Below, piece after piece: positions 6,601 through 42,388 of a stretch of DNA of 55,804 nt. Source of the stretch: a virus; IMG/VR virus record IMGVR_UViG_3300021138_000032, positions 1 to 55,804 of that record. One strand, given 5' to 3'. The notes beneath the pieces are model-generated. The model saw only the letters and a list, made by a program, of their open reading frames with translations, had not been told where the DNA came from and made no database searches. Numbering within the stretch: position 1 is the stretch's first letter; every line of letters starts with the position of its first letter. The position numbers and the translations under genes are program-made.

Positions 6601-9600
6601 ATCAATATTATTAGAATTATCATATCTAGCAACATATTGTTTTATCTTAGTATGAAATGGTTTTACTTCGTTAAAGAAATCTGTTACAATAGTTTCTGGC
6701 TGTGGAAGATATACGGGCAGTGGATCAAGACCACGAACACGATGATATATGTCAACAAAACTTGTTTTCATCAGCCAATCAGTTTGTAGATGTTGAGTTG
6801 CAATAGTATCAATCATCAAACTCAAAATACTTTTCCAATCAGTTCTATATTCATATACAAGCAACAAATCGCGAACTATGCCAAATATTACAGAAAATTC
6901 TAAATTAGAATCGCTTGCAAATCCAACAGTTTCGAGGCTACTGGTTTGAAAACCTTGACCACTTGATATTTGGTCATACAGTGTTGAACTAAACTGAATA
7001 GTAGCATTTTCTTGTCCAATTAATTCTAATCCGTTAGTATTAACTAGTACTATTTTCCATCCATTGGCATTGCTATTTTTAATATAAATTAAATCATTAA
7101 CATTTAAGCTCAGTGATCCAATTTGGTTTTCAGTATCTATAGTGTAAGTTATGTTAAATTCAGGATTATACTTGTCGCTATACCAATCAGCATATGACCA
7201 ATAATCATTTACATTATAAGTTTGAACTTGATGAATTGACCAAGTTCTAGTATTTGGAAATTCTACATTTAGCTTGTATAAAGACCAGCCATTTTTTGCA
7301 GTACTGTCATTTGTGACCAATACCAAATCACCTTCGTTGTATACATTTGCATCTAGATAACCAAGTTCAGTTAAATTTGCAACAGAATTTACATATGTAT
7401 AACTTAAAGGTTGCGCCTCGCCTACATCTAATGCTAATACTGCACTTTTTCTAGTCAATACCATAGGGTATTTCATACAAATTTCATTTAGTTTTTCAAT
7501 GTAAAGTTTTCTGGCAGTAAATTGATCACTAAATAGTGTTTGGCGTGGTCGAATATTCATGCCATATTTTTGACCAATACTTAAAGTTGGATCAGGTATA
7601 ATTCTGCCACTATAATCTTGACCAGATAAACTATCGCTTATCTTATTAATAAATTCTGAGGCAATACCTAGGTCAGTGCCGTCATCAAACATTGTCCATT
7701 CATTATGGATAAGTTGTGGCTTAATGGTATTCTTATATTCAATTACTAAATTAGTATCTACATCTATTAGATTAGTAACATTATATAATGCAATAGAATT
7801 GCTAGAAATTACTGCCGCAAATGGTTCAGGAGATAGTTTAGGCTGTGAAATTGCAGTTTGAATTTCAAATGCGCTTGGTCTAACATTCTTTGGATCAACT
7901 CGTGTGCTATTGCGAACCCAGAAATAATACTTGGTTGTAACCAATCCAGTTGAATGATCAACGATATTTCGTGTGCTGTAAACATCATTAACAGTGTATA
8001 GCGGTGGATTTAATGGATGTGCTGCTGCCCAATCCTTTGGCAGAACCGAACTTTCAATCCATTCATATATTGACACTAAACTTACTGGAAATGCTTGTCC
8101 CCATCTATTGAACTTCTCAAGATTTGAGCCATATGAATTATCAAAGTATTTTATACTATTGGTGTCCCACCATAGTTTGCCAATTTGTTCTTCGCCCCAG
8201 TTGTTTTTCTTATCAACACTGAAACTAACTGTGCTAGGAACATTGCTATATACCGCAGGATCATAATTTATAGTATAATCAATATACGATTCTGCCGATA
8301 TAGGAAGACGATTATGAAGAATATCTAATACGGGCAAGTCTGCAATCAATTTGCTAGTAGCAGAATTGTATATATAAACTCTATCTATCATTCTACTATC
8401 TGTAGGAGTACTTGGTTCTCTGATAGTATTCCACACAGGAGAAGAATTTGCATTATAATAGATATACATTGCGCCTGTTTGATTTCCCAAAATTTTAGAA
8501 TTTGGAGAACCAACGAGAATAAAATTATCACTGATATCGACGCCAGTTGAAAATTTATCAAGGCTTGAAATATTTGGCTGAGTTAATAGCTTAGCATAAA
8601 CAAGGCTTCCCATATCTGACAAACTATTTGATTTTCCAGCAATATATTCAAATATATGCGCAGAACCGCTTGTATGAACAGTGTCAATAATTCTGATAGT
8701 ATTAATATCAAATGTTGTTTTGCCAATATCAAAAGTTGTTGTGATTTTATTATTGCTTAGTGTAGTTCCAACAACTACCGTATTAGCATCTGGGCTTAAA
8801 CTTAATTTTTCACCAAAACGCTCAGAATCTTGAATTATTGGGCTGAATAATTTTTGAGTTAGCTGCCAAGGAACGATGCCCATAGCAGTAAGAGGATCAC
8901 CATATTCATTACGAAGTCTAAGTTTGTTTACTGCTACTTGATCATTGCTTACTATTTGCACAGCACCTGAAGATGTTAGGCTAGCTGTTACACCAATAAT
9001 ATTAGCTGAATTAATATCTTTTACACACTGTGCAGCATTTCCGCCAGTAAATGTCACTAGAAAATCATTGATTCTTAACTGCAGGTTTGCAGCCATGTTG
9101 ACACTTGTGTTGGTTCCAGTAGTTATGCCATATCGCTTAGGTATATTGACAAAAGCAAACACTGCACCATTCTGATAACTTGTATAATTCCAACCTGGAG
9201 CACTTGCATATAGAGTCTGTGAATCTCTGGACATTTGTACAACTTGACCAAAATTACTACCAACTTGACCAGAATCAGAAGTAGCAATTTTTGTAATAAT
9301 AAATTGATTAGTCGATACTGCAACTATACTATCAGGGTTTGGTACACTAGTTAAAGTTACAGAATTATTAGCATAGTTAAATGTCGCCGCAGCAGCAACG
9401 CCATCTACGGTTACTGTAGGATGCGTTATAAGATTTGCGGTAGTAATAGTATCGCTTCCAGTAAAAGCATTACTCAAGCTAAAAGTAGAAGAAATGCCAT
9501 CTGATACAAAATTTTCTACGGTTCTTTCATAAACAAATGCTTTTCCTGAATTTGAATATGTTATATCAAATGCGCTGTTGCTATACGGCGCACCGATAAC

Positions 9601-12600
9601 AACTTCACGGCCATCATAGCTGCAAGAAACACTTGACCCAAAACCAGAAGCAGTTGGATCATCGGTAACAATCTGATTAACTTCTTGAAAGTAGTTTTCA
9701 TATACTATATTAATAGCAACACCATTTGCTGGCGCAGTATTGAATGTAATACTATCTGTTCCATCTGGACTTCTGATATAATCTAGGTATGGGACTAATT
9801 GTTTTCCACCCACATACACTTTAATATCAAGTGGACCAAGATTCATTCTATAAGCAGTTGGAGGATATGAAAATATAGTTGTATATCCATCACCTACTCT
9901 GTTTGAACTGCTTGGGTTTACAATTTGGTACTTGTAAACAAACACTCGTTGAAGAGTTGGCTCGCCAACAAACAACCAGTTTCCATCTGTGCTGGCACAT
10001 AAGCTTGTTCCAAATGCACTATTTGGTGTAAGTGTTGGATATATGGCAACATTTGCTCCGCCAGCAATTGTGCTGCTAGTAACTGCTAAGTTTGAACTAA
10101 TTCCAATAACATTGTATGGGTAACCAGTTGTAAGATTACTGATAACTGTTCCGCTTGCAATGTTTGCGCCAACAACTTTCATTCCTACTGCAAAGTTTGC
10201 AAGCCCATAACTACTATCTACTAATATTGCGCTGTTTCCATAAGGAGTAACAGGAGTACTAGCAGTAATATAAATGTTGTCATAATGTATAATTTGATTT
10301 ACGCTAATAGCTTGACTATTTGCAATTGCTGTATAAACGCTGCCTTTATTTGATGAGGGAGCGGATGCTACAACAATATTATTGTTGTTTACATCAACTG
10401 CAGCACCAAACCCAGAACTTCTGGCTTCAGGAGTTAATATTCCTAATTCTTGCCATACATTTTCTTGATTTTTTCCGTAAATGAATACTTGACCAGTAGT
10501 ATTTTTTCCAGCGGCACCCACTGCAGCAAAACTTTGAGTAAAGTTTACTTTGATACTTGAACCATATAAGTCGCTAGGTTTTGTGAAAACAGGACTGCGC
10601 GTTTCTGTAAATTTCCAACTATCAGTGTTTTGTAATACTTGATATCCGTTAGGTCCATTATCAATATAAACAATTTCACTATCTTGCCAACCACGAGTTG
10701 GCGTAAAATTAGCAAAATCGTTTACTGTGCCAAATCGCACATTTATCAACTTAAACATTGGAGCAGATAGTTTTCCACTGCTGATAGTAGTATTGTTAAC
10801 AATCTTTACTGAAAATGACACTGCATTTGGAACATTGCTGACTCTATAGAACCCACTTAAGTCAATAACACCAGATGTTCCAGTAGAAGCAACTATTTTT
10901 GCGCCCTTGATCATCACATAATCAAAAGTATTCAATCCATGCGGAATATCAGTTGAAAAAGTTATTTCGGTAGAACCTGTTTGATTTACGCCAGTAACAT
11001 TGACTCTACTTGTTTGCGTTAAACGATATACGCCCCACTTATTTTCGCTATCTGCTGCTATCCATATTTTGCTAGATTCGCCCAATATGCCATTTAGATT
11101 GCTAATATTATAAATTTTGTTTATATCATATACGCTTGCAGTAGTATCAGCAATATTAACTGGACCAGCCGTTGAAACTATTGGTTTTTGATACTCTGTT
11201 TGTGCAAAGATATTAGCGTTATAAGTTAGTGGAGCAAGAAGTAAATCACTTGGTTTAATACTGTTTAGATCACTGCTTACCGCATCATATTGATTAATGA
11301 ACTCAAATAGATATTGATTATTAATAGTCTTACTGTTGCCAATATTAAAATCTAATTTGTCAACATTATTTGTGCCACCATAATTGCCAAGTTTAACAGC
11401 CCACTGTTCAGAAACAGTAATTTCGCTATCAATGCCTTTTTGTTGATTTCTTAAGAAAGCATTTAAAACAGCTTGCGTTCCTTTTTGAGTAAGCATGCCC
11501 AAGTAGAACTTATACTGACTTGTGCGGTCTAAGCCTAAGTTAGTAAAGTATTGTCTGTCTTGGAAACCAGTTGCATGTTTACTTTGAATGTCTGCGCTAG
11601 TATTAAGATCGGCAGTGTCAGGATCATAAAAATTAGTAAATTGAGCAGCGTTGGATGTCATATTTGGAATCAATTGTTTTTTCAACAAGTCTCCAGAAAT
11701 TTTATACCAATCTGTAGAATTGAAATTAACAGCACCTGGAATGAAATTTCTTGCAGCATAATATTGATTCTTGAATAAAACGATGTCACCAGTATAATAA
11801 TCAGTATATGCTGTCCAATTAGCTATATCGCTATAATTTACCAAGAAGCCAGGCGCATATAAACTTCCGTTCCATCCTTGTGTCTTAACACCATCAAGGC
11901 GCAATCTAAATTGACGACTGCCAACTTGTTCATCATACAAGATGTCATTAAAAACAGTAGAGTTATCAAACACTAAACAATGTTCATACTGAACAATAAT
12001 AATATCTAATAAATGAATACCTTTTTGCGGATTCTTTAGCGTAATACTAAAGTTATTATCATCACGATAAACACGATAATCTCTTCCAGTTAATGTAGTA
12101 CCATCACTGTCAACTACTTTAGTATATGTTTGATCATTTGCAATCTTATCTACTACACCAAATACATTGCTGTAGTTTACTGAAGTTCCTGTTGGCGTTA
12201 ATCCAATAACTGTATTATTGCCCCAATTTTGTTGGTCCCAAAATAAAAATTCTTTAGCAGCAAGCGTCCAATCACTTACAGTTTGATTATCTGCAAGCAA
12301 ATCATTAAAGATAAACCCTTGATTTATCAGATATCTGCCATAGCTTATTAAGAAATCAACCACTTGCTGATATGTTGAAAATATTGTGCCATAAGGAAAA
12401 CTAGTTACAGTGTTTTCTGCATCTTTATAAATGATTCCAGTAAGCTGACCAACTGTTAATCCATAATTGTTACCACTGACTTTGCTAGGAATTGTCAAGA
12501 AATATGGACGAGTTTTATCAAAACCAGATATTTGATAACCAGTGCTTGTTTTTTGTACAACCACTGCGCTGTATATTGCTCTGCCTATTGGCGCACTTTT

Positions 12601-15600
12601 TGTAACTTTAATTTGATAATTTTCTGGCGGTATAAGAACACTATTATTTGTACTAGAAGGACTTACTTGGTCAGCCACAACTGTTAGATAACTTTTATCA
12701 GTATATCCAGACATTTTATAAACTAAGTTAAAACTACTATTTTTAGCAATATCTAACCAGTTATTAGTTACATCTAAGTTATTGCTAGTTAGTAAATCGC
12801 GTACCCAAACATTGAATCCAGGAATAAACTCACTTGAATTTGTAATACTGTAATCAAACACACGAGTATTTGTTTTTTGATTTATTATTTGTCCTAGTGA
12901 TTCATTGTAAAATACATCACGAGAATTATAATTTAATGCACAGTATTCAGCAGGTTTTGCTAGGAACCAAGCAATTTGCATTGCAAATGGATAACTGCTG
13001 CTGCGTCTCCATGCAGTTTCTGCTGGACTTTGATCGCCTACTCGCCAATTGTCATTTGCTGTTCTTGAATCATATTTTGCAACCAATGACTGTAGCGGAG
13101 CTAGCAAGTTGCCATGCTCGTCAACTGGTATTATTTGACTTAAACCAGTTCTTGTATATTTTGAATCAATATAACTTTTATTTGGAGCACCATTATAAAT
13201 TAAACCAAGTTCTAAATCTCCCCAAAGGGTACTATTTTGGCTTGTATATGGTGCAACGCCATAACGAGCTTCCCACCAACTTGGTTTTTCTGTAAAACCT
13301 AACATTTCCCATGGATTGGTATGCGGCTTATCAGTATCATAAAAGTAATTGTAAATTCCACGCCAGAAACCAGGCAATGTTTGACCAAATAACTTATCGG
13401 TTGCTTGACTGTAATTAAAACCAAACAATGAATTTGTACTATTATTGTTAGTAAAAATATCTACATTATTTTGTCCGCTCCAGCTTAGATAGTTGCCGCT
13501 TAACAACTGAGTCCATTCTGCAATACTGTAATCTGTTACTCTAAAAGCTCCAGGAACAACACTTACCAAACTGTAATCACTATTATTTTGATAATCTACT
13601 GCAATGTTATTGAATACGCGCTTTTCATATTCTAATAAAATGTCATCTCTATAATCATTCCATGCCAGATTATAACTTCCATCATGTCCAATTATCATAT
13701 TCTGTGGCGTATTATATGTATCGTCTAAAATTTTCTGAGGAACAAATTTAGGATATAATCCTAGCTTGCTCGGTGTTGCAGGAACATTACAGCCAAGAGT
13801 ACTTGGGTATTCATAGATACTTAAAGTATCGAGTCTTGAAATGCTAACATTAGATGATATTGTTACAGTAAAATTAGTAATCGTATAATCAACGCCGTTA
13901 ACCAATAGCTGCCGTGTGCCATATAATTTATTAGTTAGATAAACTAGAACCGCATTATAACTACTTTTCTTATTTGCATATGTATTAGTAAGATTAAATG
14001 ATCGATATGTATTATCTTGTATAGTATAGCTATTAGTAATATACTGACTGCCAGTTGCTAGCATATCAGTATAGTAAAATGTGCTGTTAGTGTTTGTCAA
14101 TTTAGTAAAATCTGACAAGATTAAATCTAGCGAACCGCGAGCGTCTGTTGGATCAGGAAATTCTTTGTTGTTAATTAAACCAATTAACTGATTTTTAAAA
14201 TTTTGATAGCTGTTTTCCGAGTATGTGATTGCACGAACTGGATCGACATCTGGATTTGCCAACAGTAAAGATGCTTGTCTTAAACTTGAACTATGTTGTA
14301 GAAGTTTACCACCAATATTTGAATAATTTAAATCTCTGAAATTGTTGCTACCTGCTGGTTCACCGCTTAAGTTTAAGCAATTATTTCCAATTTCAATCAA
14401 ATGATTTCTAATTTGACCTAAAGTAATAGTATTAAAATTTAAATTTTCACTGTTGTTAGTGATATTTTTGGGCATAGTATAGTTTTGCTTAAAAATATTA
14501 CTAACGCCGTTTATCTTTACAAATAATCTGTCACCTGCCGCCAAATCAGTATTAAATTTAATAGTAGTGGTAATATTATTAATTTGCACAGTATATGCAG
14601 TTGATGGAACAAAAACGCCGTTAACATACACAAATATGTTATTTTCATAATAACTGTGCTTATATGCTAACTCAAGATCAAAATTATTTTTCTTTGCTTC
14701 GCTGGCAATAATAACTTTTGTAATATATTGCTTACTTTTATCAGAAACAACTGACCATCCATTTTCAAAAGAATAATTTTTCCAATAATTTATTTTTGCT
14801 GCAAATCCCGTGCTGACATTAGTAACATTATCTTTAAAATTTAAATTATAATTAAATGTATCGGTGATATAATAATTTTCAAAAACAATATCACCGATGT
14901 TACCAACAGACTGCCTAACTAATGGAAATTTAAGAACGCTATCAATCGCTGCGGTTGAACTACCAATGGCATACCCAAAAAGTTTACTACCACGGAAATT
15001 ACTGCTCGGATAAACAGAAGTATCACTTAGACTAAATCCATTAATATCAATGACATCAAACAGCGGCAGTTGTCCACTATTACCTACTACGCTTAGTTGA
15101 GCAAGATTCCAGACGCCAGAATCATAAAAGTACACATTGCCTTGGTTTACCTCGCCTTCCATAGCAACAACATTATCACCATCTAAAACCTGTTTAACTG
15201 GAACAAGATGAATTTGATCTGCGCTGTTGTCAAAAGTTAGATACAACCCTGCTGCAATATCAGAATTTATTATAGTGCTAATATAAACTATGTTGTTTAC
15301 TGAATCAATTGATGTAACAGTAGTATTTGGTAAAATAGGAGTTGATAGTGGAATATACTGAACCAACACAGTTGTTCCAGTTGCTGGACCAGTTACAACA
15401 TAGTTAATAACAACTGCAGAACCAGTTGTCGGCGCAGAATTTAAATTTATAACAGGATGCCCATTTACATCTGTGCTAACAGTATAGTCGGTAGTAAGTG
15501 TCTTTAGCGCACCATTAACATAAACATCATATCTATAATTGGTAACAGAAGAAATAGCAGTATTGACTAAATCATATGCAGTTTGTCCAGCGGTGCTAAC

Positions 15601-18351
15601 AAAAGAGTAAGAATTTATTACTTTGTTTAAGAAATTAATAGTAGGGTTATAATAGCTTGAAGATGCCTGATAGACATTTATAGTAACACCAGAAGCAGTG
15701 GCAGTTGTTACCTTGCTTAACAGTAAATTTTGAGTACCACCGCCACTTATAACAGTAGTACCGTTTTGAAATATTCCGCCATTATCAACTATTACTTGGC
15801 CAGTTTGGATATTAACATAAGTTGTAACAGTTACTGATGTTAGTGACTGTGTACAAGTATTGCTTAAAGTCAATGAATTAGTTCCGCCGCCACTTATAAC
15901 AGTTGTACCAACTGGAATACCAGCGCCTGATATTGCTTGTCCATTTACTATACCACTTCCACTATTGATGCTTATAATATTGCTTCCAGATACTACGGTG
16001 GCGTATGTAGTGGCAATAGTTGGTAAAGTTATAGAATTATTTAAATTAATAGTACTAACAGTTGATGTAGCCAAACTTGAACCAGTGTAGTATACTGATT
16101 GTTGATATGTTACATTATAGTCTACATTATTAGTTTGCAGCACATTATTCAAATAAACATTAAAATAGTAAGCATCAAAATTACCAAGGTTTGAAATTAA
16201 ACTACAAAAGAAACTAGTTTGACCAGCAGTAGTTGTAAATGCTGGTTGAGTTTGCTGGATTAAACTTGAAGTTACTTTTTGGTTTACTTTAATATTTCCA
16301 ACATCTGCTAGAAAAATAGTATTTGTTCCTGCATGTGATGTTGCAATAGTTGGTAAATTATAAGTTGCAGAGCTGCGCGGACGAATACTTTGAACCTGAT
16401 ATATTGTTTTTCTTACAATAGGATCAACATCATTTAAAAATATTACAGTTTGACCATTTTGTAATAATATATTGTCGCTTACATATTTTCCGTTTTTGAT
16501 AAGTGCATAATTATTTTGACCTTCTACTTGAAAAAAAGCATCAGTTGTGTTACTATCAAGAACTGTTACGGCTCCAGCATAATTTGTACCATAATCAAAT
16601 AATTTTAAATTTGGAATAAATTCAACGATAGGTCGTTGAGCTTGTTGAGCAGCGTCAAAATTCCATATTTGATTTGACTTATCTGCAGCATATTGCAACA
16701 CTTCACGATGGAACCAACGATTATTGCGACTCCAACTATTGCCATCTGCGCTGGATCGATTTATTGTTATATAATCTTTTGTCGTTGGTGCGTTCGATGT
16801 TCCATCAAAATTATTATCATCAAAACCAATAATATCGCTGCCAAACAAATCACCGACATTTTGATTTATTATTTCTGGTGTTACCAAATCATTATATTTT
16901 AAAAGTTTAATACTAGTTCCGACGCCTTCGACAATATATTCATTATCTTGATATTCTGTTGGAAAAGTTATTCCAGTAAATTTTACTTTAAGACCACTTG
17001 AAAATTTAATGCCATTTGGACTTGTATACTGGTCATGCCCGATGATATCATTAATATTTAAAAAGGTTCCAGGCGCAGGATCAACTAATCTAATTTCACC
17101 ATAAATTAATGGATTATCAGCATCTTGATAATATAATGTGCTAAGAGGAGCAGTAATAGTTGGAAACTGAGTAATTACACCGTTTGAATTTCTATAAACA
17201 TATGTATGGCCATATTTGTCACCTTGATTGACAAAAGTCTTTGTGTTTTCTGTCCAATCATTCAAATACGCCAAGGTCATATTTCTATAGTTTGGATTGG
17301 TAGTTACGCCGTCAGGAAGAAATTTATTATTATCAATAGTAACTTGCCAAATTCCATTACGCTGGTTAGAAGGAACATCTAACCAGTCACCGTCATTAAA
17401 TGGCCAATCGATGCAGATTAACGCAGTAGAAAATGCTTTAACGCCGTCTAAATTATAATTTTGAATAAAGGTATCGTAGTTTTGTCCCTGCATGGCACTA
17501 TAAGGAACATGCGCTATCATATCTATATTTTGTATAGTATCTAATGATATTAAAGAATCTTGTGCTGTCTTCAGCGGCACATTGAAAATTAAAGTTCCAC
17601 TTTCACTGCCATTATTTGAAACACCTAACACATCTCTTGTATTAATGTTTGCTTGGACGCTGCTTACTCCACTTGTTCCAATTTCGCTTTGAATATAAAA
17701 TTTATGCCCTGTTTGTCCAAGATTAAATGTGTATCGGCCACCGCGCTGTAAAGTAATAGTTGGATTAACAATATTTTCGTATCCATCTATTGTATATCCA
17801 CTTTGACCTATACTAGCACTTTGTAACTCGCTTTGGTTATTTGCAGTGTAACTTACACGATGAACATTAAATTCTTTTATTAAAGAAATACCACTGGCAG
17901 TGACATCAACTGGTAGCGGACCAGTTGGAACCCAATAATATTGACGATAATTTGTTAACTTGTCAAGATCGACAAATCCGTTATAACTGTAATATCTGTT
18001 AGAAAACAAACGCTGATGGTCACTTGTAATTGCGCCACTAGAAACTAATTGATTTAATAAATCTGGATAGTTGTAGATATTATCGATAGTAAAAGTATTA
18101 CTATTTTTTTGTCGTTTCTTAATTACTACGCCAGGTTCAAGCTGATAAAACTGAGAATAGCTATCATTTTCATTAATATAATAATCTGATGAGCGAAATA
18201 CTGAACTTTGATCCTGTTGTCCAATATACCCATAAATCTTTTTAAGACTTGGTTCTTGAATTAATTGGTCAACCGTTGCATTTAGAAATCTTTGGTTAGT
18301 CTTAGTTCTAAAAACTGACGGTAGAAAATCAATACTTCTGCGCTTAGCCAT
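3610..18351 (-). CDS. Giant 4913-residue virion protein in gp7 position
   Basis: One uninterrupted frame of 14.7 kb, about a quarter of the window. It lies directly downstream of the gp6 gene, where T4 has gp7 (about 1000 residues), so it is probably a baseplate or baseplate-peripheral protein. The N-terminus (MAKRRSIDFLPSVFRTKTNQ) is followed near residues 200-270 by a GGRYTFNLGQTGHKFYI strand module. Residues ~2600-3290 hold repeated FG-GAP-like blades (FGAAVDVNNNNIVVASAP, FGSSVSCSYDGREVVIGAP, FGEKLSLSPDANTVVVG), suggesting a beta-propeller. At least eight modules of the type VxVNGxxxxxxDYTxxxxxIxFxxAPxxGxxIxV are scattered through it, and there are GSGYT repeats near 4000. No signal peptide, membrane segment or protease motif was seen. 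Function is unproven. Confidence 0.7.
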   Translation of the reverse strand: MAKRRSIDFLPSVFRTKTNQRFLNATVDQLIQEPSLKKIYGYIGQQDQSSVFRSSDYYINENDSYSQFYQLEPGVVIKKRQKNSNTFTIDNIYNYPDLLNQLVSSGAITSDHQRLFSNRYYSYNGFVDLDKLTNYRQYYWVPTGPLPVDVTASGISLIKEFNVHRVSYTANNQSELQSASIGQSGYTIDGYENIVNPTITLQRGGRYTFNLGQTGHKFYIQSEIGTSGVSSVQANINTRDVLGVSNNGSESGTLIFNVPLKTAQDSLISLDTIQNIDMIAHVPYSAMQGQNYDTFIQNYNLDGVKAFSTALICIDWPFNDGDWLDVPSNQRNGIWQVTIDNNKFLPDGVTTNPNYRNMTLAYLNDWTENTKTFVNQGDKYGHTYVYRNSNGVITQFPTITAPLSTLYYQDADNPLIYGEIRLVDPAPGTFLNINDIIGHDQYTSPNGIKFSSGLKVKFTGITFPTEYQDNEYIVEGVGTSIKLLKYNDLVTPEIINQNVGDLFGSDIIGFDDNNFDGTSNAPTTKDYITINRSSADGNSWSRNNRWFHREVLQYAADKSNQIWNFDAAQQAQRPIVEFIPNLKLFDYGTNYAGAVTVLDSNTTDAFFQVEGQNNYALIKNGKYVSDNILLQNGQTVIFLNDVDPIVRKTIYQVQSIRPRSSATYNLPTIATSHAGTNTIFLADVGNIKVNQKVTSSLIQQTQPAFTTTAGQTSFFCSLISNLGNFDAYYFNVYLNNVLQTNNVDYNVTYQQSVYYTGSSLATSTVSTINLNNSITLPTIATTYATVVSGSNIISINSGSGIVNGQAISGAGIPVGTTVISGGGTNSLTLSNTCTQSLTSVTVTTYVNIQTGQVIVDNGGIFQNGTTVISGGGTQNLLLSKVTTATASGVTINVYQASSSYYNPTINFLNKVINSYSFVSTAGQTAYDLVNTAISSVTNYRYDVYVNGALKTLTTDYTVSTDVNGHPVINLNSAPTTGSAVVINYVVTGPATGTTVLVQYIPLSTPILPNTTVTSIDSVNNIVYISTIINSDIAAGLYLTFDNSADQIHLVPVKQVLDGDNVVAMEGEVNQGNVYFYDSGVWNLAQLSVVGNSGQLPLFDVIDINGFSLSDTSVYPSSNFRGSKLFGYAIGSSTAAIDSVLKFPLVRQSVGNIGDIVFENYYITDTFNYNLNFKDNVTNVSTGFAAKINYWKNYSFENGWSVVSDKSKQYITKVIIASEAKKNNFDLELAYKHSYYENNIFVYVNGVFVPSTAYTVQINNITTTIKFNTDLAAGDRLFVKINGVSNIFKQNYTMPKNITNNSENLNFNTITLGQIRNHLIEIGNNCLNLSGEPAGSNNFRDLNYSNIGGKLLQHSSSLRQASLLLANPDVDPVRAITYSENSYQNFKNQLIGLINNKEFPDPTDARGSLDLILSDFTKLTNTNSTFYYTDMLATGSQYITNSYTIQDNTYRSFNLTNTYANKKSSYNAVLVYLTNKLYGTRQLLVNGVDYTITNFTVTISSNVSISRLDTLSIYEYPSTLGCNVPATPSKLGLYPKFVPQKILDDTYNTPQNMIIGHDGSYNLAWNDYRDDILLEYEKRVFNNIAVDYQNNSDYSLVSVVPGAFRVTDYSIAEWTQLLSGNYLSWSGQNNVDIFTNNNSTNSLFGFNYSQATDKLFGQTLPGFWRGIYNYFYDTDKPHTNPWEMLGFTEKPSWWEARYGVAPYTSQNSTLWGDLELGLIYNGAPNKSYIDSKYTRTGLSQIIPVDEHGNLLAPLQSLVAKYDSRTANDNWRVGDQSPAETAWRRSSSYPFAMQIAWFLAKPAEYCALNYNSRDVFYNESLGQIINQKTNTRVFDYSITNSSEFIPGFNVWVRDLLTSNNLDVTNNWLDIAKNSSFNLVYKMSGYTDKSYLTVVADQVSPSSTNNSVLIPPENYQIKVTKSAPIGRAIYSAVVVQKTSTGYQISGFDKTRPYFLTIPSKVSGNNYGLTVGQLTGIIYKDAENTVTSFPYGTIFSTYQQVVDFLISYGRYLINQGFIFNDLLADNQTVSDWTLAAKEFLFWDQQNWGNNTVIGLTPTGTSVNYSNVFGVVDKIANDQTYTKVVDSDGTTLTGRDYRVYRDDNNFSITLKNPQKGIHLLDIIIVQYEHCLVFDNSTVFNDILYDEQVGSRQFRLRLDGVKTQGWNGSLYAPGFLVNYSDIANWTAYTDYYTGDIVLFKNQYYAARNFIPGAVNFNSTDWYKISGDLLKKQLIPNMTSNAAQFTNFYDPDTADLNTSADIQSKHATGFQDRQYFTNLGLDRTSQYKFYLGMLTQKGTQAVLNAFLRNQQKGIDSEITVSEQWAVKLGNYGGTNNVDKLDFNIGNSKTINNQYLFEFINQYDAVSSDLNSIKPSDLLLAPLTYNANIFAQTEYQKPIVSTAGPVNIADTTASVYDINKIYNISNLNGILGESSKIWIAADSENKWGVYRLTQTSRVNVTGVNQTGSTEITFSTDIPHGLNTFDYVMIKGAKIVASTGTSGVIDLSGFYRVSNVPNAVSFSVKIVNNTTISSGKLSAPMFKLINVRFGTVNDFANFTPTRGWQDSEIVYIDNGPNGYQVLQNTDSWKFTETRSPVFTKPSDLYGSSIKVNFTQSFAAVGAAGKNTTGQVFIYGKNQENVWQELGILTPEARSSGFGAAVDVNNNNIVVASAPSSNKGSVYTAIANSQAISVNQIIHYDNIYITASTPVTPYGNSAILVDSSYGLANFAVGMKVVGANIASGTVISNLTTGYPYNVIGISSNLAVTSSTIAGGANVAIYPTLTPNSAFGTSLCASTDGNWLFVGEPTLQRVFVYKYQIVNPSSSNRVGDGYTTIFSYPPTAYRMNLGPLDIKVYVGGKQLVPYLDYIRSPDGTDSITFNTAPANGVAINIVYENYFQEVNQIVTDDPTASGFGSSVSCSYDGREVVIGAPYSNSAFDITYSNSGKAFVYERTVENFVSDGISSTFSLSNAFTGSDTITTANLITHPTVTVDGVAAAATFNYANNSVTLTSVPNPDSIVAVSTNQFIITKIATSDSGQVGSNFGQVVQMSRDSQTLYASAPGWNYTSYQNGAVFAFVNIPKRYGITTGTNTSVNMAANLQLRINDFLVTFTGGNAAQCVKDINSANIIGVTASLTSSGAVQIVSNDQVAVNKLRLRNEYGDPLTAMGIVPWQLTQKLFSPIIQDSERFGEKLSLSPDANTVVVGTTLSNNKITTTFDIGKTTFDINTIRIIDTVHTSGSAHIFEYIAGKSNSLSDMGSLVYAKLLTQPNISSLDKFSTGVDISDNFILVGSPNSKILGNQTGAMYIYYNANSSPVWNTIREPSTPTDSRMIDRVYIYNSATSKLIADLPVLDILHNRLPISAESYIDYTINYDPAVYSNVPSTVSFSVDKKNNWGEEQIGKLWWDTNSIKYFDNSYGSNLEKFNRWGQAFPVSLVSIYEWIESSVLPKDWAAAHPLNPPLYTVNDVYSTRNIVDHSTGLVTTKYYFWVRNSTRVDPKNVRPSAFEIQTAISQPKLSPEPFAAVISSNSIALYNVTNLIDVDTNLVIEYKNTIKPQLIHNEWTMFDDGTDLGIASEFINKISDSLSGQDYSGRIIPDPTLSIGQKYGMNIRPRQTLFSDQFTARKLYIEKLNEICMKYPMVLTRKSAVLALDVGEAQPLSYTYVNSVANLTELGYLDANVYNEGDLVLVTNDSTAKNGWSLYKLNVEFPNTRTWSIHQVQTYNVNDYWSYADWYSDKYNPEFNITYTIDTENQIGSLSLNVNDLIYIKNSNANGWKIVLVNTNGLELIGQENATIQFSSTLYDQISSGQGFQTSSLETVGFASDSNLEFSVIFGIVRDLLLVYEYRTDWKSILSLMIDTIATQHLQTDWLMKTSFVDIYHRVRGLDPLPVYLPQPETIVTDFFNEVKPFHTKIKQYVARYDNSNNIDYAYSSLTDFDLQPYYNTAISKYRSPQLNNSLDTKTLNTQTLYQPWRNNHTYQVSRIDVSANGSGYTSSTTVIIEGDGTGATAKAYILNTGVYTIEVTNPGSGYTYAVAKIYGLGSGAKASVILDNSPVRLLNTNIKFDRYTYFNNISDWKANTFYSVDSVVVNNEEPYRVITAHTSGTTFDFTKFALLKVKVWYPYTEYAVNDIVIYQNTSYKTISTFTSSELFDTNNLVSYNGLWLDNAADRIWAYYSPMSGMAGRDLAQLMVGMEYGGVNAKGPNFDQTPGYDVNNFDSIEYDSRTQDVGGVFDDYGAQAEDTYIQSSFTDTGLGLRPADIIVLGGEFVDKYSSNAPEELIPGIINDTLDIKVRTLPINSGSGDIMIFTNQYSVTNSFSFDTVLTGVSWPVGGIEKFFIIDRIAGPLAEDVDYTVNWQNKTINLNYNANTTTFFYCIMMGSNGINPVFDQNYTADGIQTDFVIPDNTLSTVQQAYVKVNGKAVSNWVLVNKLLNGINTLTVRFNTAPVAGSYIQVHLYAVAVGTRAYTEITEQTFITSTAPNYPADYTYMLTNPEEYQEPLSAYSIVRLNASDLVPPQQSYYVGDAVTTAFSLTRTYIPDTYVGATIEIELANYVATISPTAILVIVDGVVQRYNIDYTISADGISMPIVVFTAAPALNSKITISDSSNSDYIIYGGNTLVLNQNIVLNPSSVITVLTRGNHDPSQVYTKIFSGNASNSIVDVDLGYDGIGFDDTGFDNELSTSISNAIYTLPYAVTDINQIYITLKSPGTTGGRPLLPYYDYNLISPTKLAMSNSLGLYTNSTIIVRIYGSIIRETAVEFRIFKDINNTTRYYAVRPSRVTRLSKILNPTDEWVYVESVVNLQSPDPKTNIAGAILVNGERITYGTVDTVNNRLGNIRRGTAGTGASVHEVGSQVDDVGSTLMIPNSSDKVITVSNDTYITNSAGTNVLVPANGTLMQGIMFVSSGESLQTSASQQAKFIREL

Positions 18352-37047: not shown

Positions 37048-37055
37048 TATAAATA
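37048..37055 (+). promoter_or_regulatory. Perfect TATAAATA late promoter before structured RNA and ABC operon
   Basis: TATAAATA matches the T4 late consensus exactly. With the usual 6-nt spacing, transcription would start at 37061, precisely on the first base of the GGAGC that closes the RNA fold. That agreement supports both calls. Confidence 0.65.
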
Positions 37056-37060
37056 ATTTT

Positions 37061-37186
37061 GGAGCAAGGCCACATTTGGTGACCTCGGAACTCGTAATCG
37101 ACGCGAAGGACGCAAGTTCTGTACCGTAAGTAATGCCTTACCAAACGCCGACCGTAGTAGCTAGTCCCACCAATGCTACAAGCTCC
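37061..37186 (+). ncRNA. GC-rich structured RNA: candidate riboswitch or stand-alone ncRNA
   Basis: About half of these bases are G or C, against roughly a third around it. A closing stem pairs GGAGC (37061-37065) with GCTCC (37182-37186). Inside are a hairpin at 37068-37084 (GGCCAC/GTGACC), an inner junction stem TCG/CGA (37085-37087 with 37149-37151), GAACT/AGTTC (37088-37092 with 37115-37119), GTAAG/CTTAC (37126-37130 with 37137-37141) and GTAGC/GCTAC (37157-37161 with 37175-37179). The first hairpin's TTTGGT (37075-37080) can also pair with ACCAAA (37140-37145), and TTGGTG (37076-37081) with CACCAA (37168-37173), suggesting a pseudoknot or switch. It does not match TPP, SAM, glycine, cobalamin, c-di-GMP or guanidine riboswitches as I remember them. 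A terminator and an ABC importer follow. Confidence 0.6.
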
Positions 37187-37212
37187 TTTCATTAAAAATT
37201 TAATACTATACG

Positions 37213-37235
37213 CATCAATTATATTGATGTTTTTT
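37213..37235 (+). terminator. Intrinsic terminator between structured RNA and ABC importer
   Basis: CATCAAT (37213-37219), a 3-nt loop, ATTGATG (37223-37229), then six T. The stem is short and AT-rich but perfect. It lies 26 nt after the RNA fold and 34 nt before the start codon of the binding-protein gene. That is the standard place for a riboswitch expression platform, or the 3' end of a small RNA. Confidence 0.6.
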
Positions 37236-37269
37236 GTGTTATCTGTTAACTTTATGGAAGGAGAAAAAA

Positions 37270-38253
37270 ATGTTTAACAGAACAATAACAACTATCGCTC
37301 TATTACTATCTCTTGCGTCGGTTGCGCATGCAGAAACTGAAATTCGCGTCAATCGAATGATTAAGTATGCAAGCAGCGAACCACTACTATATAAAACCGT
37401 TGAATTGCTTCCAGAATATGCCAAGAAAGAAGGAATTAATGATATCAAGGTATCTTATGTAGATATTCTTGAAGCAACAAAAGCAAACGAAGCACTTTTG
37501 CTAGGTCAAATTGATATTGTATTTGGCGGAGCAAATGCGTTTGGTATTCTTTTTGATAAAGACCCATCCAAAGTTAAACTTTTAGCTGGCGGCGAAGAAT
37601 ATGATCAATGGATAGTTTGCGGCAATCCTAAAATTAAATCATTAAATGATATTACGCCAACTACAAAAATTGCCATGAAGGGCATGAATAGTGGTGAACA
37701 GATGCAATTGCGGCAATATACTGCTGCAAAGTTTGGTGACAAGGAATATGCCAAGTTCGATAGTAATATTGTTGTAATGCCTCGTGATCAAGCACTTGCA
37801 CAAATTACTAAAACAAACCCTGAAATTGATTGCGGTATTATTGGCGTTCCATGGCAAAATATTGCTGTCAGCAAGGGAGCGCATATTATTGCACACAATG
37901 AAGACCCAACTAAAACAACAGGTGTTCTTAATAGTGTATACTCTACAACAAAGTGGTTAGATGCAAATCCTAAACTTGCTCGTGCATGGGTTGCTGCACA
38001 AAAGGCAGCTATCGCAGAATTTGAAAAGAATCCACGCCCAATGTTGATTACCTATATGACAAAAGACGAAGTAGTTGAACCAACACTAAATGAGTTAGTT
38101 GAACAAAAGAAAGAAAACCATGATGTTTATCAGTATAAGACAGATAGTACGCTGCGATATATAGATTTCTTATATCGTGCTGGTATCTTGAGCGGCGCTG
38201 GTAAAGATAAAAAGCACAGTGACATGGTATGGGATGAAAAGTTAGTCAAGTGA
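37270..38253 (+). CDS. ABC importer periplasmic substrate-binding protein (NitT/TauT-like)
   Basis: 327 residues from the ATG at 37270, chosen because GGAGA precedes it and the protein then begins with a clean signal peptide: MFNRTITTIALLLSLASV, then AHA as the cleavage site. The frame extends upstream but that part has no ribosome site. The mature part has the NMT1/SsuA-like order: GQIDIVFGGANAFGILF, then KVKLLAGGEEYDQWIVCGNP, KIAMKGMNSGEQMQLRQY and CGIIGVPWQNIAV. This superfamily binds taurine, sulfonates, nitrate, thiamine precursors and related small molecules; the ligand cannot be deduced. ATPase and permease genes follow with overlaps, making a complete importer, very unusual in a phage. 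Confidence 0.82.
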   Translation: MFNRTITTIALLLSLASVAHAETEIRVNRMIKYASSEPLLYKTVELLPEYAKKEGINDIKVSYVDILEATKANEALLLGQIDIVFGGANAFGILFDKDPSKVKLLAGGEEYDQWIVCGNPKIKSLNDITPTTKIAMKGMNSGEQMQLRQYTAAKFGDKEYAKFDSNIVVMPRDQALAQITKTNPEIDCGIIGVPWQNIAVSKGAHIIAHNEDPTKTTGVLNSVYSTTKWLDANPKLARAWVAAQKAAIAEFEKNPRPMLITYMTKDEVVEPTLNELVEQKKENHDVYQYKTDSTLRYIDFLYRAGILSGAGKDKKHSDMVWDEKLVK

Positions 38254-38855
38254 TTAACCTTAGTAACCATACAGTTACCGTAAGTGATAATACTCCACTG
38301 TTTGCGCCGATAGATTTGTCGGTGCAAGCAGGGGAAATTGCTGTTATCATGGGAACAAGTGGAGTAGGTAAGACAAGTTTACTTGCGTCTATTGCTTCTA
38401 GATCAGATATCATATTCAAGAATCAATTTCGTGTTTTTCAAGAAAGTCATCAACTGTTTCCATGGATGACTGTGAAAAAAAATTTAGAATTAGTTTGCCA
38501 AAAACCATACATTGATTTGGTAAAACGATGGAATCTAGAACAATATCTAGATCATAGTCCAACAAATTTAAGTGGCGGACAACGCCAACGATTTACACTT
38601 ATTCGCAGTTTATGCAGTGGATTGCGCACATTGTTATGCGATGAGCCGCTAAGCGCCTTAGATGGTCTTACAGGGGCAACTGTCGCAAAAGATTTCCGTG
38701 AGATTGTTCACGAAGAAAATTTAACCGTTATATGGGTTACACACAATGTAACCGAAGCACGAATAGTAGGCGACAGCATATACTTGCTTAGCAAAGACGG
38801 TCTTAAAAATATAACCCGTGAGGATGATTTAATTGTTTCGATCCTTTCTTTATAA
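38250..38855 (+). CDS. ABC importer ATPase (SsuB/TauB-like)
   Basis: 201 residues, GTG start overlapping the binding-protein stop by 4 nt. All nucleotide-binding motifs are intact: Walker A GTSGVGKT (35-42), Q-loop in VFQESHQLFPWMTV (about 62-75), signature LSGGQRQR (107-114), Walker B LRTLLCDEPLSALD (125-138), and the H-loop in WVTHN near 170. It is shorter than typical SsuB/TauB ATPases (about 250), mainly through compact helical and C-terminal regions. It would power the neighbouring permease at the inner membrane. Confidence 0.88.
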   Translation: MINLSNHTVTVSDNTPLFAPIDLSVQAGEIAVIMGTSGVGKTSLLASIASRSDIIFKNQFRVFQESHQLFPWMTVKKNLELVCQKPYIDLVKRWNLEQYLDHSPTNLSGGQRQRFTLIRSLCSGLRTLLCDEPLSALDGLTGATVAKDFREIVHEENLTVIWVTHNVTEARIVGDSIYLLSKDGLKNITREDDLIVSILSL

Positions 38856-39579
38856 TGCGTTAGCTATTTCTATTATATTAATAGGATGGCATTTTTTATA
38901 CATTATTGTGCAAGAACCACTTATATTTCCTGATAGTACAAGTATTTTATCTGCGCTATACGATCTGATATGGACCAGCAAGTTTTGGTTTAGTTTCTAT
39001 TATACTATGCGAACACTTGTATTAAGTTATATTATTGGTATGTTTATTACTATTTGTATCATACTACTTTGCATGAAATACCAGTGGTTAAAGGCGTTAT
39101 TTGAGCGTTATTGTGCATACTTCAATCCTCTGCCAAGTTTCGTGCTGGTGCCCTTTATGAGCCTGTTTATGGGGCTAGGCGCAGCAGTCGTATACAGTAT
39201 CATTGTATGGAATATAGTATGGACTAGCGGCTTACAAATTCTACGAGCAATAGAATCAGTGCACGAGCAATGGGAAAAACATGTGCGAAATTTACAATGG
39301 AGTGGCTCTAAAGCACTGCTTAAAGTTTATATGCCAGCCGCTATTGGAAACCTAATAGGAATTGCAAGCACAAGCTGGGCCAATAGCTGGCGTATTCTTA
39401 TTAGTCTTGAAGTAGTTTTTGGAAGCATTGGTGGATATTTTGGGTTAGGAAGTTATATTATTGATGTTAAAAGTAAATTAGATATTGACCAGATGTATGC
39501 TATACTATTTGTTATTGCACTAACAGGCGTTACTATTAATAGTTTATTGAATAGTTTAAAAAAGAAATACAGTTATTAA
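38833..39579 (+). CDS. ABC importer permease (BPD-transporter family)
   Basis: 248 residues, TTG start overlapping the ATPase gene by 23 nt. Hydrophobic segments are clear: ALAISIILIGWHFLYIIV near the N-terminus, YIIGMFITICIILLCM, PFMSLFMGLGAAVVYSIIVW, and a C-terminal MYAILFVIALTGVTINSLL. The cytoplasmic EAA-like loop is present as LKVYMPAAIGNLIGIASTSW, the site that contacts the ATPase. Length and order fit SsuC/TauC permeases. Together with the two upstream genes it completes one transporter. Confidence 0.87.
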   Translation: MFRSFLYNALAISIILIGWHFLYIIVQEPLIFPDSTSILSALYDLIWTSKFWFSFYYTMRTLVLSYIIGMFITICIILLCMKYQWLKALFERYCAYFNPLPSFVLVPFMSLFMGLGAAVVYSIIVWNIVWTSGLQILRAIESVHEQWEKHVRNLQWSGSKALLKVYMPAAIGNLIGIASTSWANSWRILISLEVVFGSIGGYFGLGSYIIDVKSKLDIDQMYAILFVIALTGVTINSLLNSLKKKYSY

Positions 39580-39589
39580 AGGAATTATT

Positions 39590-40189
39590 ATGACTTGGTT
39601 TTATAAAATTTTACAAGATTTGCCGCATGTTCCGCAACACTTAATTGATCGTGCATATGCACAAATGGATACAAAATTAGAACAAATGCCACAGGGTAAA
39701 CGGCAAATAGATTGGAATAAAATTACCACTGACACTATTATCGTCGATGGTGTTAAGAAAATTAATGCGCCAAACTTAGCATATAGTTTAGATGATGAGA
39801 TGCGAGATTGGGTATATGCTAATATTACAGATAAAAGTGTAGTGAATATTCGTATTGCCAAGGCAGATACAGGCAAAGATGGCAAGGATACAAATGGCGC
39901 ACATTGTGATTTAAGCCGTAATTATAGCTTAATTTATTTGCTTGACGGCGGTGGCGAGGATCACAAGACAGTGTTTTACCATGAGCGCGGCAAACCACTT
40001 ATGCGAAACAATGGCGACCGCTGTAACGATCACAGTTTATTAGATATCGTTGAAAGTTTCCAGATACCGCTACGAACATGGACTGTTATTCAAACTCGTA
40101 TATTACATGGTGTTCGAAACATTCCTAGTCCACGAATCTCTATTCAAGTAGGATTAAACAGTGTTGAAGGACTAGGATTGGTTGACTAA
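39590..40189 (+). CDS. 2OG-Fe(II) oxygenase-like protein
   Basis: 199 residues with AGGAA ribosome site. The double-stranded beta-helix oxygenase pattern is visible: H105-C-D107 in NGAHCDLSRNYSLIYLLDGG as the proximal metal ligands, H173 in LHGVRNIPSPRISIQVGL as the distal ligand, and R176 or R182 as a candidate 2-oxoglutarate contact. Members of this fold are common in marine phages. Taurine dioxygenase is a 2OG enzyme next to TauABC in bacteria, but this protein is shorter and has no recognisable TauD sequence, so a shared pathway is only a thought. It is 10 nt after the permease and overlaps the next gene. Confidence 0.62.
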   Translation: MTWFYKILQDLPHVPQHLIDRAYAQMDTKLEQMPQGKRQIDWNKITTDTIIVDGVKKINAPNLAYSLDDEMRDWVYANITDKSVVNIRIAKADTGKDGKDTNGAHCDLSRNYSLIYLLDGGGEDHKTVFYHERGKPLMRNNGDRCNDHSLLDIVESFQIPLRTWTVIQTRILHGVRNIPSPRISIQVGLNSVEGLGLVD

Positions 40190-41288
40190 GTTTCATATAT
40201 TCAATGATGATAGCTATTATCTAGTCAATAATACTATTGAATATAGTAAACTTCGTGCTATTGAATTAGCTAACGGCGATTTAAATAAAATTCAATTTAG
40301 TTGGATGGAAAATACTTGGGCCAATATAGATTGGACAATTGATCCAAAAGAATCGTGGAGCGAACTTTTGCGCACCCGTTGTCAACAAATTCGTGACAAG
40401 TATACCTATTTGGCGCTGTGGTATAGCAGCGGCTATGATAGTCACACCATCCTTCGTGCCTTTGTTGACAATGGTATATTATTAGATGAGTTATTAATAT
40501 ATGATCGCCGTGATTTCTTTGACGACCCTGAAGTTGCGGTTGCAATTACTCATGCAAATTATATAAAAAATACATATTATCCTAATTTAAAAATTAATGT
40601 TGTTCGCAGCAATGCATCTTCAATAGAAAATTTTTATAATAAATTTGGTGAAGACTGGGTATACCATCCAGGTTATAGTTTAAAAATTAGTAAAACAAGC
40701 AGAGTTTTTGCTACTACTGTTATGGATGATTTTTTAAGTGCAAGCTATAAGAAAGGCATCCGTGGCGATATAATGGGTATTGATAAAGCAAAAGTATTAC
40801 TAAGCAACGGTAAATGGTACGCATTTTGCTCAGATAGCAGCGCATATGATTTTATGGGAACAAATCAAGAAAATTTTTACTATAGCAATGACTTACCGCA
40901 ACTTCATATAAAACAATGTCATATGGTAATTGATTGGTTTGAAAGTTTACCAGAGTTAACAAGGAATCTAGTGCATAACATTCAAGGCAAAGATAGAAAA
41001 CTAGGCGGAATACATACAAAACACTATGAAGATTGGAATTTAGCAATGGGCAGATGCAAGCTAATGCATAGTAATATTGCTAGTGTTGATGGAACTCATA
41101 AATTTTTTCACACAAATGATGAAAAATCTCCAGATTTTATTAACTATTTTAATCATATAAAAGAAAATGAGAAGAAAATTTTTAAAATATATGACAACGG
41201 TTTAAAAAGAATGAGAAGTTATGGAAATGCCATTGAAAGTACAATTTTAAGTAAGCAGTATTATCTGCGAGATAGAGTATACAAGTGA
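40182..41288 (+). CDS. PP-loop (asparagine-synthase-like) ATP pyrophosphatase, copy 1
   Basis: 368 residues, TTG start overlapping the upstream gene by 8 nt. The PP-loop is SSGYDS at 82-87, in LALWYSSGYDSHTILRAFVD, a variant of the SGGxDS motif that binds ATP in asparagine synthetase and related adenylating enzymes. No glutaminase domain is present. Other conserved spots shared with copy 2 are ELLIYDRRDFFDDPEV, KGIRGDIMGIDKA and IKQCHMV. Such enzymes activate a carboxyl or carbonyl group for transfer of nitrogen or sulfur. The substrate is unknown. Confidence 0.72.
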   Translation: MTKFHIFNDDSYYLVNNTIEYSKLRAIELANGDLNKIQFSWMENTWANIDWTIDPKESWSELLRTRCQQIRDKYTYLALWYSSGYDSHTILRAFVDNGILLDELLIYDRRDFFDDPEVAVAITHANYIKNTYYPNLKINVVRSNASSIENFYNKFGEDWVYHPGYSLKISKTSRVFATTVMDDFLSASYKKGIRGDIMGIDKAKVLLSNGKWYAFCSDSSAYDFMGTNQENFYYSNDLPQLHIKQCHMVIDWFESLPELTRNLVHNIQGKDRKLGGIHTKHYEDWNLAMGRCKLMHSNIASVDGTHKFFHTNDEKSPDFINYFNHIKENEKKIFKIYDNGLKRMRSYGNAIESTILSKQYYLRDRVYK

Positions 41289-42388
41289 GCAAATTTCATA
41301 TATCTAATAACGAAAGTTATTATCTAGTCAACGGAAATACGATTGAATATAGTAAAATTCGTGCTATTGAATTAGCTAATGGAAATTTTAACAACATTCA
41401 ATTTAATTGGATGGAAGACACTTGGTCAAGGGTAGATTGGACTGCGGAACCGCAAGAAACTTGGAGTGAGTTGATGCGCACTCGCTGTCAACAAATTCGT
41501 GACAAATACACATATCTGGCACTATGGTATAGCAGTGGCTATGATAGCCATACTATTCTTCGTGCGTTTGTAGATAACAACATATTGTTAGATGAATTAC
41601 TAATATATGATCGTCGTGATTTCTTTGATGATCCTGAAGTAGAAGTTGCTATATTACACGCCAACTATATAAAAAATACATATTATCCTAATTTAAAAAT
41701 CAATGTAGTGCGTGTTGAATCTAAAGCTATAGAAAACTTTTATAGTAAGTTTGGTAGCGACTGGATTTATCACCCAAGTTGTAGCTTAAAAATCAGCAAG
41801 ACTAGCAGAATATTTGCTACAACGGTTATGGATGATTTTTTGAAAGCAAGTTATAAAAAAGGTATTCGTGGCGATATAATGGGCATTGATAAAGCAAGAG
41901 TGTTACTGCGAGATGGCAAATGGTATGGGTTTTGTTCAGACAACATGGGTGTTGATTTCATGGGAGCAGACCAAGAAAATTTTTATTATAGCAGCGATTT
42001 GCCGCAATTACATATAAAGCAATGTCATATGGTAATTCGTTGGTTTGAATCACTTAAAATATTGACAGGCGGATTAGTACATGCTATACAAGGTAAGAAT
42101 AGATTAGGCAATGGCGTTAATACTAGGTACTATAAAGATTGGAATTTGGCTATGGGCAGATGCAAACTGCTACATAGTCATATAAGTAGCATTGATGGCA
42201 CACATAAATTATTTTCTAGCAACGATGAAAAATCACCAGATACACTTTCTTATTACAATCACATAAAAGACAGTGGGGATAAAATTTTTAAAATATACAC
42301 TAATGGATTAAATGTGATGAGAAGCCATGGTTCACTAATATCTCAAACTGTTATGAGTAACCAGTATTTTATTAAAGATAGAAGTTAA
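41285..42388 (+). CDS. PP-loop (asparagine-synthase-like) ATP pyrophosphatase, copy 2
   Basis: 367 residues, GTG start overlapping copy 1 by 4 nt. It is a clear paralogue of copy 1 along its whole length, by eye roughly two-thirds or more identical. The same PP-loop SSGYDS and flanking segments (RTRCQQIRDKYTYLALWY, LIYDRRDFFDDPEVEVAI) are kept. Differences cluster in the C-terminal third and in the segment after FATTVMDDFL. Both copies look intact, so they may form a heteromer or act on different substrates. The stop directly abuts the next ATG. Confidence 0.72.
   Translation: MSKFHISNNESYYLVNGNTIEYSKIRAIELANGNFNNIQFNWMEDTWSRVDWTAEPQETWSELMRTRCQQIRDKYTYLALWYSSGYDSHTILRAFVDNNILLDELLIYDRRDFFDDPEVEVAILHANYIKNTYYPNLKINVVRVESKAIENFYSKFGSDWIYHPSCSLKISKTSRIFATTVMDDFLKASYKKGIRGDIMGIDKARVLLRDGKWYGFCSDNMGVDFMGADQENFYYSSDLPQLHIKQCHMVIRWFESLKILTGGLVHAIQGKNRLGNGVNTRYYKDWNLAMGRCKLLHSHISSIDGTHKLFSSNDEKSPDTLSYYNHIKDSGDKIFKIYTNGLNVMRSHGSLISQTVMSNQYFIKDRS

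Follow-up and report, generated by a model that had tools for sequence, protein, structure and literature searches.

A structured leader RNA at the predicted start of late messages for solute-uptake genes in uncultivated phages, a likely new class of gene-control RNA

The window analyzed here is the whole 55,804-nt stretch of the IMG/VR virus record IMGVR_UViG_3300021138_000032 (positions 1–55,804). It contains an operon for an ABC importer directly preceded by a structured RNA that has a late promoter of its own (Table 1), as the preliminary description of the locus had proposed. The RNA coincides with the GC-rich island described there (about 50% G+C vs. about 33% in the surroundings). The major capsid protein is 63–68% identical to those of the T4-like jumbo phages PA5oct, XaC1, and Phosso, the cultured relatives. 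Elsewhere in the window, the cargo region encodes two tandem paralogous PP-loop-like proteins with no Pfam match (40182–42388), and an open frame of 4913 residues lies among late structural genes on the minus strand (3610–18351).

Table 1. Features of the RNA locus and the downstream operon (window coordinates).
Feature	Position	Strand	Basis or remark
T4-type late promoter, perfect TATAAATA	37048–37055	+	Sequence; TAAATA in relatives
Predicted late transcription start (+1), first base of P1	37061	+	T4-like spacing; onset of P1 pairing
Whole structured RNA domain	37061–37186	+	R2 match 56.9 bits, E 4e-10 (window also in R2 training set); covariation
P1, 5' strand GGAGC	37061–37065	+	Pairs with 37182–37186
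Hairpin P2, GGCCAC ATTTG GTGACC, conserved C·A mismatch	37068–37084	+	Double changes of the basal pair
P6, 5' strand UCGG	37085–37088	+	Pairs with CCG-U-A at 37152–37156
P7, 5' strand	37098–37103	+	Pairs with 37146–37151; closes the P3/P4 junction
Hairpin P3, AGGAC GCAA GUUCU	37107–37120	+	Double changes at pairs in relatives
Hairpin P4, GUAAG..CUUAC	37126–37141	+	Contains the strongest covarying pair on A2
3' strands of P7 (CGCCGA) and P6 (CCG-U-A)	37146–37156	+	Covariation
Hairpin P5, GUAGC..GCUAC, length variable	37157–37179	+	Covarying pairs
P1, 3' strand GCTCC	37182–37186	+	Pairs with 37061–37065
Anti-ribosome-binding-site segment CTCCTTTCAT, overlaps P1 3' strand	37183–37192	+	10 bp with 37254–37263
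Terminator-like hairpin CATCAAT/ATTGATG + T6	37213–37235	+	Not conserved
Weak sigma70-like promoter TTGATG-N17-TAACTT, possible early promoter	37224–37252	+	p 0.72, not significant in the window
Ribosome-binding site region ATGGAAGGAG	37254–37263	+	Sequence; pairs with 37183–37192
ABC solute-binding protein, NMT1/SsuA-like	37270–38253	+	SsuA_fam below cut-off; Burkholderiales homologues 22–30% identity
ABC importer ATPase	38250–38855	+	PF00005
ABC importer permease	38833–39579	+	PF00528

The fold consists of the outer stem P1, the hairpins P2 and P5, and, between these two, a P6/P7 helix that leads into a three-way junction with P3 and P4. The closing GGAGC/GCTCC stem and the four further stems proposed earlier (P2, P3, P4, and P5) exist and are conserved; P6 and P7 are additional to that list. 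P1 is seen in relatives as GGAGC/GCTCC, GGAGT/ACTCC, or GAAGC/GCTTC, and comprises only 2–3 bp in most copies. The basal pair of P2 shows double changes from C-G to G-C and A-U, and its C·A mismatch is present in 47/47 rows of A2, the MAFFT alignment of 47 diverse copies on which model R1 is based. A CGCC/GACG-like helix containing a C·A mismatch is common to P2 and P7 (GGCC/GACC in P2 of the window). P7 was discovered via the covarying column pair 42–96 of A2, which lies outside the first structure drawn and shows UA, CG, GC, AU, and UG types; model R2 was built after P7 had been added. P6 is nearly invariant, with double compensatory changes in two copies (UGGG/CCC at locus L181 and CCGA/UCG at L207). 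An ACG/CGU hairpin suggested by RNAalifold was rejected, since covariation is seen for the P7 pairs of that stretch and the P6 change at L181 is compensatory.

The nearly invariant core letters are UCGGA, GACGC, UUUA, AACGCC, and CCGU. As the search patterns fixed some core letters, their invariance in A2 is to some extent a product of the search; a scan demanding the 5' half only found the 3' core still mostly kept. The two alternative pairings drawn earlier for the first hairpin loop, with 37140–37145 and 37168–37173, are not conserved: most subfamily relatives have a short GNRA-like loop 1, so neither pairing can form there, and the first also overlaps the conserved P4. At locus L264 (3993–4200, minus strand) the inner P7–P3–P4 module is apparently duplicated in tandem, and two loci (L279, L291) carry degenerate copies, in which the promoter and P2 remain and the core is lost.

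The folding energy is unremarkable (z = −1.1 for the island and −1.8 for the leader), and is insufficient alone; the support for the RNA structure comes from comparison. Model R2 has 104 matches on 100 loci, in about 100 IMG/VR phage contigs, the loci including the R2 training sequences. In the R2 alignment, which is fitted to the model, 89.8% of the pair cells hold standard pairs, vs. 72.8% for shuffles and 28–55% for slid partners; both sides are changed in 662 cells, vs. 212 for shuffles, and every helix covaries over the 104 copies. The significance of covariation was assessed for all column pairs with our own tree-based null, not with R-scape. In free MAFFT alignments, the significant column pairs fall on the structure in 5/5 cases with 47 sequences and in 9/11 cases with 102 sequences, the other two being one column off. 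Covariation, which the preliminary description had named as a check, is hence abundant among homologues, and no protein frame is kept, the alignments being full of 1–3-nt indels.

Relatives of the binding protein are found on 11 viral loci, and both leader and promoter are conserved in all 10 whose upstream sequence is long enough to include them. Scans of viral contigs with sequence patterns show a family much larger than this window subfamily, with at least the matches listed, some of which are chance. So far, the family is seen only in contigs of uncultivated phages. Model R1 finds no copy in five cultured T4-like jumbo phage genomes, which differ from the window in this respect and have the TATAAATA promoter in common with it. 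Neither blastn with two family members nor tblastn with the binding protein yields anything in cultured phages, and 399 genomes of the order Burkholderiales give no more than two matches, both weak (E 0.035 and 0.04, calculated per single genome). Three bacterial pattern matches in genome contigs are accompanied by neither the promoter nor the fold context, and appear to be chance matches. Rfam 15 contains no class matching the RNA in the window or at ten family loci, a lax threshold adding chance-level hits only, and no description of this RNA was found in the open PMC literature. It is previously undescribed, and has the appearance of a new class of RNA for gene control.

The perfect TATAAATA reported upstream of the island is indeed present; such perfect elements occur twice in the window, vs. 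9.6 expected by chance. The 29 TAAATA occurrences in the window are enriched outside large ORFs, 16 of them lying there while these ORFs make up 89% of the window (unannotated contig ends counted as outside), and several are directly upstream of structural genes. In the family, the promoter is linked to the RNA: TAAATA stands at near-constant spacing from it in 93 of 97 copies, and the remaining four have close variants. As expected of a late promoter, a TATAAATA-like element is found before late genes, at a fixed distance from a start predicted from sequence only. In the window, the spacing between promoter and predicted start matches that of T4 late promoters. In the family copies, where +1 was set by counting five bases after TAAATA, P1 positions are paired in 81% of 99 copies at +1 and in 97% at +2, vs. 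55% at −1 and about 35% further upstream. Since P1 pairing starts at the predicted +1, the RNA seems to begin within its own first helix, i.e., at the first base of the late viral message, and the start that had been postulated earlier agrees with the structure.

Such an onset of pairing is also consistent with the main rival explanation, a 5'-end stabilizer, in which the paired first nucleotide would hide the triphosphate from RppH/RNase E, so that late cargo messages last or are translated well with no ligand involved. The arrangement of most copies, with the RNA heading the message and the ribosome-binding site close behind, fits this as well. However, a stabilizer has no obvious need for two C·A mismatches or for a nearly invariant core, even if the invariance comes partly from the search patterns. 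Moreover, among the 13 records of at least 100 kb, model R1 finds one copy in 12 and two copies in one, hence, other late genes do without the RNA. We consider this explanation rather unlikely.

The RNA is also linked to the type of gene behind it, which usually serves solute uptake (DctP, TctC, NMT1-type, or other binding proteins, TctA, porins). The Pfam scan of 84 next genes yields 23 DctP, 17 TctC, 4 TctA, 4 SBP_bac_8, and 4 Porin_4; NMT1-type binding proteins are seen behind the RNA in the window subfamily. The tie to one importer suggested by the window is unsupported, since the same RNA also precedes TRAP, TTT, and ABC binding proteins, porins, dioxygenases, and others, and genes this diverse indicate no single ligand. 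Two nearby copies are present at four loci; in three of them (L181, L267, and L207), the copies are about 1 kb apart and each precedes its own binding-protein gene, while at the fourth (L300) the gene behind the first copy is not assigned. The phage TRAP binding proteins at L127, L128, L133, and other DctP loci begin directly with the DctP domain and have no evident signal peptide. On another phage contig, a permuted tmRNA gene (L138:3623–3900; RF04321, 97.7 bits) is located about 110 nt before the RNA.

Downstream of the domain, the hairpin-T6 terminator noted earlier is present in the window, but does not hold as a defining part of the element: of the 11 subfamily members, only four have it in perfect form, namely, the window and three close relatives. 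No conserved terminator after the RNA was found in the family as a whole, a minority of members having one, and in most copies the RNA ends about 20–35 nt before the start codon, within the 5' UTR. Good sigma70-like sites between the RNA and the gene are seen in about a dozen members, in the matching place and better than that of the window. They hint at early expression without the leader in these members, as part of their message would then lack the RNA. The hairpin-T6 in these four members and the promoters behind the RNA speak for the alternative raised in the preliminary description, an independent small RNA that acts in trans and has a promoter and a terminator of its own. For the family, however, this is very improbable, because most copies lie near the start codon without a terminator, and each tandem copy sits before its own gene.

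The 3' strand of P1 is complementary to the ribosome-binding site over 8–10 bp in all 11 members of the window subfamily, exceeding swapped partners (p 0.006). This pairing and P1 are mutually exclusive, clearly so in the 11-member subfamily and weakly elsewhere; the site-blocked state in the subfamily is favored by only 0.3–5.8 kcal/mol. In the rest of the family, the complementarity to the site is reduced or absent (3.7 bp vs. 3.4 bp for swaps, p 0.013), hence these data do not indicate a family-wide switch.

Since P1 competes with the ribosome-binding-site pairing in the window subfamily and terminators are rare, a cis-acting switch is favored. The element is a conserved structured domain in the 5' UTR, as is characteristic of riboswitches, and we give roughly even chances to its representing a new class of cis-acting phage leader RNAs, which would control the following gene as a translational ON switch. 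The late promoter would produce a transcript from the first base of P1, as the spacing and the pairing onset suggest, and this transcript would fold into P1, P2, the P6/P7 helix with the P3/P4 three-way junction, and P5, a fold shown by the covariation. In the window subfamily, the anti-site segment would pair with the ribosome-binding site when P1 is open; with the core folded and P1 closed, the site would be free. An input stabilizing the core, most likely a small metabolite, would then allow solute-uptake proteins to be made late; both the activity of this switch in vivo and the ligand nature of its input are inferred. More tentatively, the RNA may represent a riboswitch class exclusive to phages, which would respond to a metabolite late in infection by switching on phage-encoded nutrient uptake, the element being kept while the transporter changes between phages. 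If true, this would be a structured RNA class so far known only from uncultivated phages, situated at the first base of the late transcript and linked to auxiliary genes by which phages may feed the infected cell; the alignment and models are material for ligand searches and for the timing of phage metabolic cargo.

The compact conserved core would also fit a site at which a protein of the phage or the host binds to control the cargo gene, and T4-like phages do use translational operators bound by proteins. Usual operators of this kind are, however, smaller than this RNA of about 95–125 nt with seven helical segments, and no partner gene was identified, although without a systematic search; we regard a protein site as improbable.

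Compared with known RNAs, the weak match to the freshwater-2 RNA (RF02980; 21.3 bits vs. the cut-off of 49.9) at 37213–37272 covers the terminator-like hairpin and the ribosome-binding site, not the structured domain. The switch reading has parallels in orphan riboswitch candidates, cf. the former NMT1 motif, which is now the xanthine/uric acid riboswitch (PMC7373994): a conserved multi-helix domain in the 5' UTR before transporter genes and a P1 strand able to pair with the ribosome-binding site. Unlike these candidates, the phage RNA is without an Rfam match, is confined to phage contigs, is tied to a late promoter, and has unrelated types of transporters downstream.
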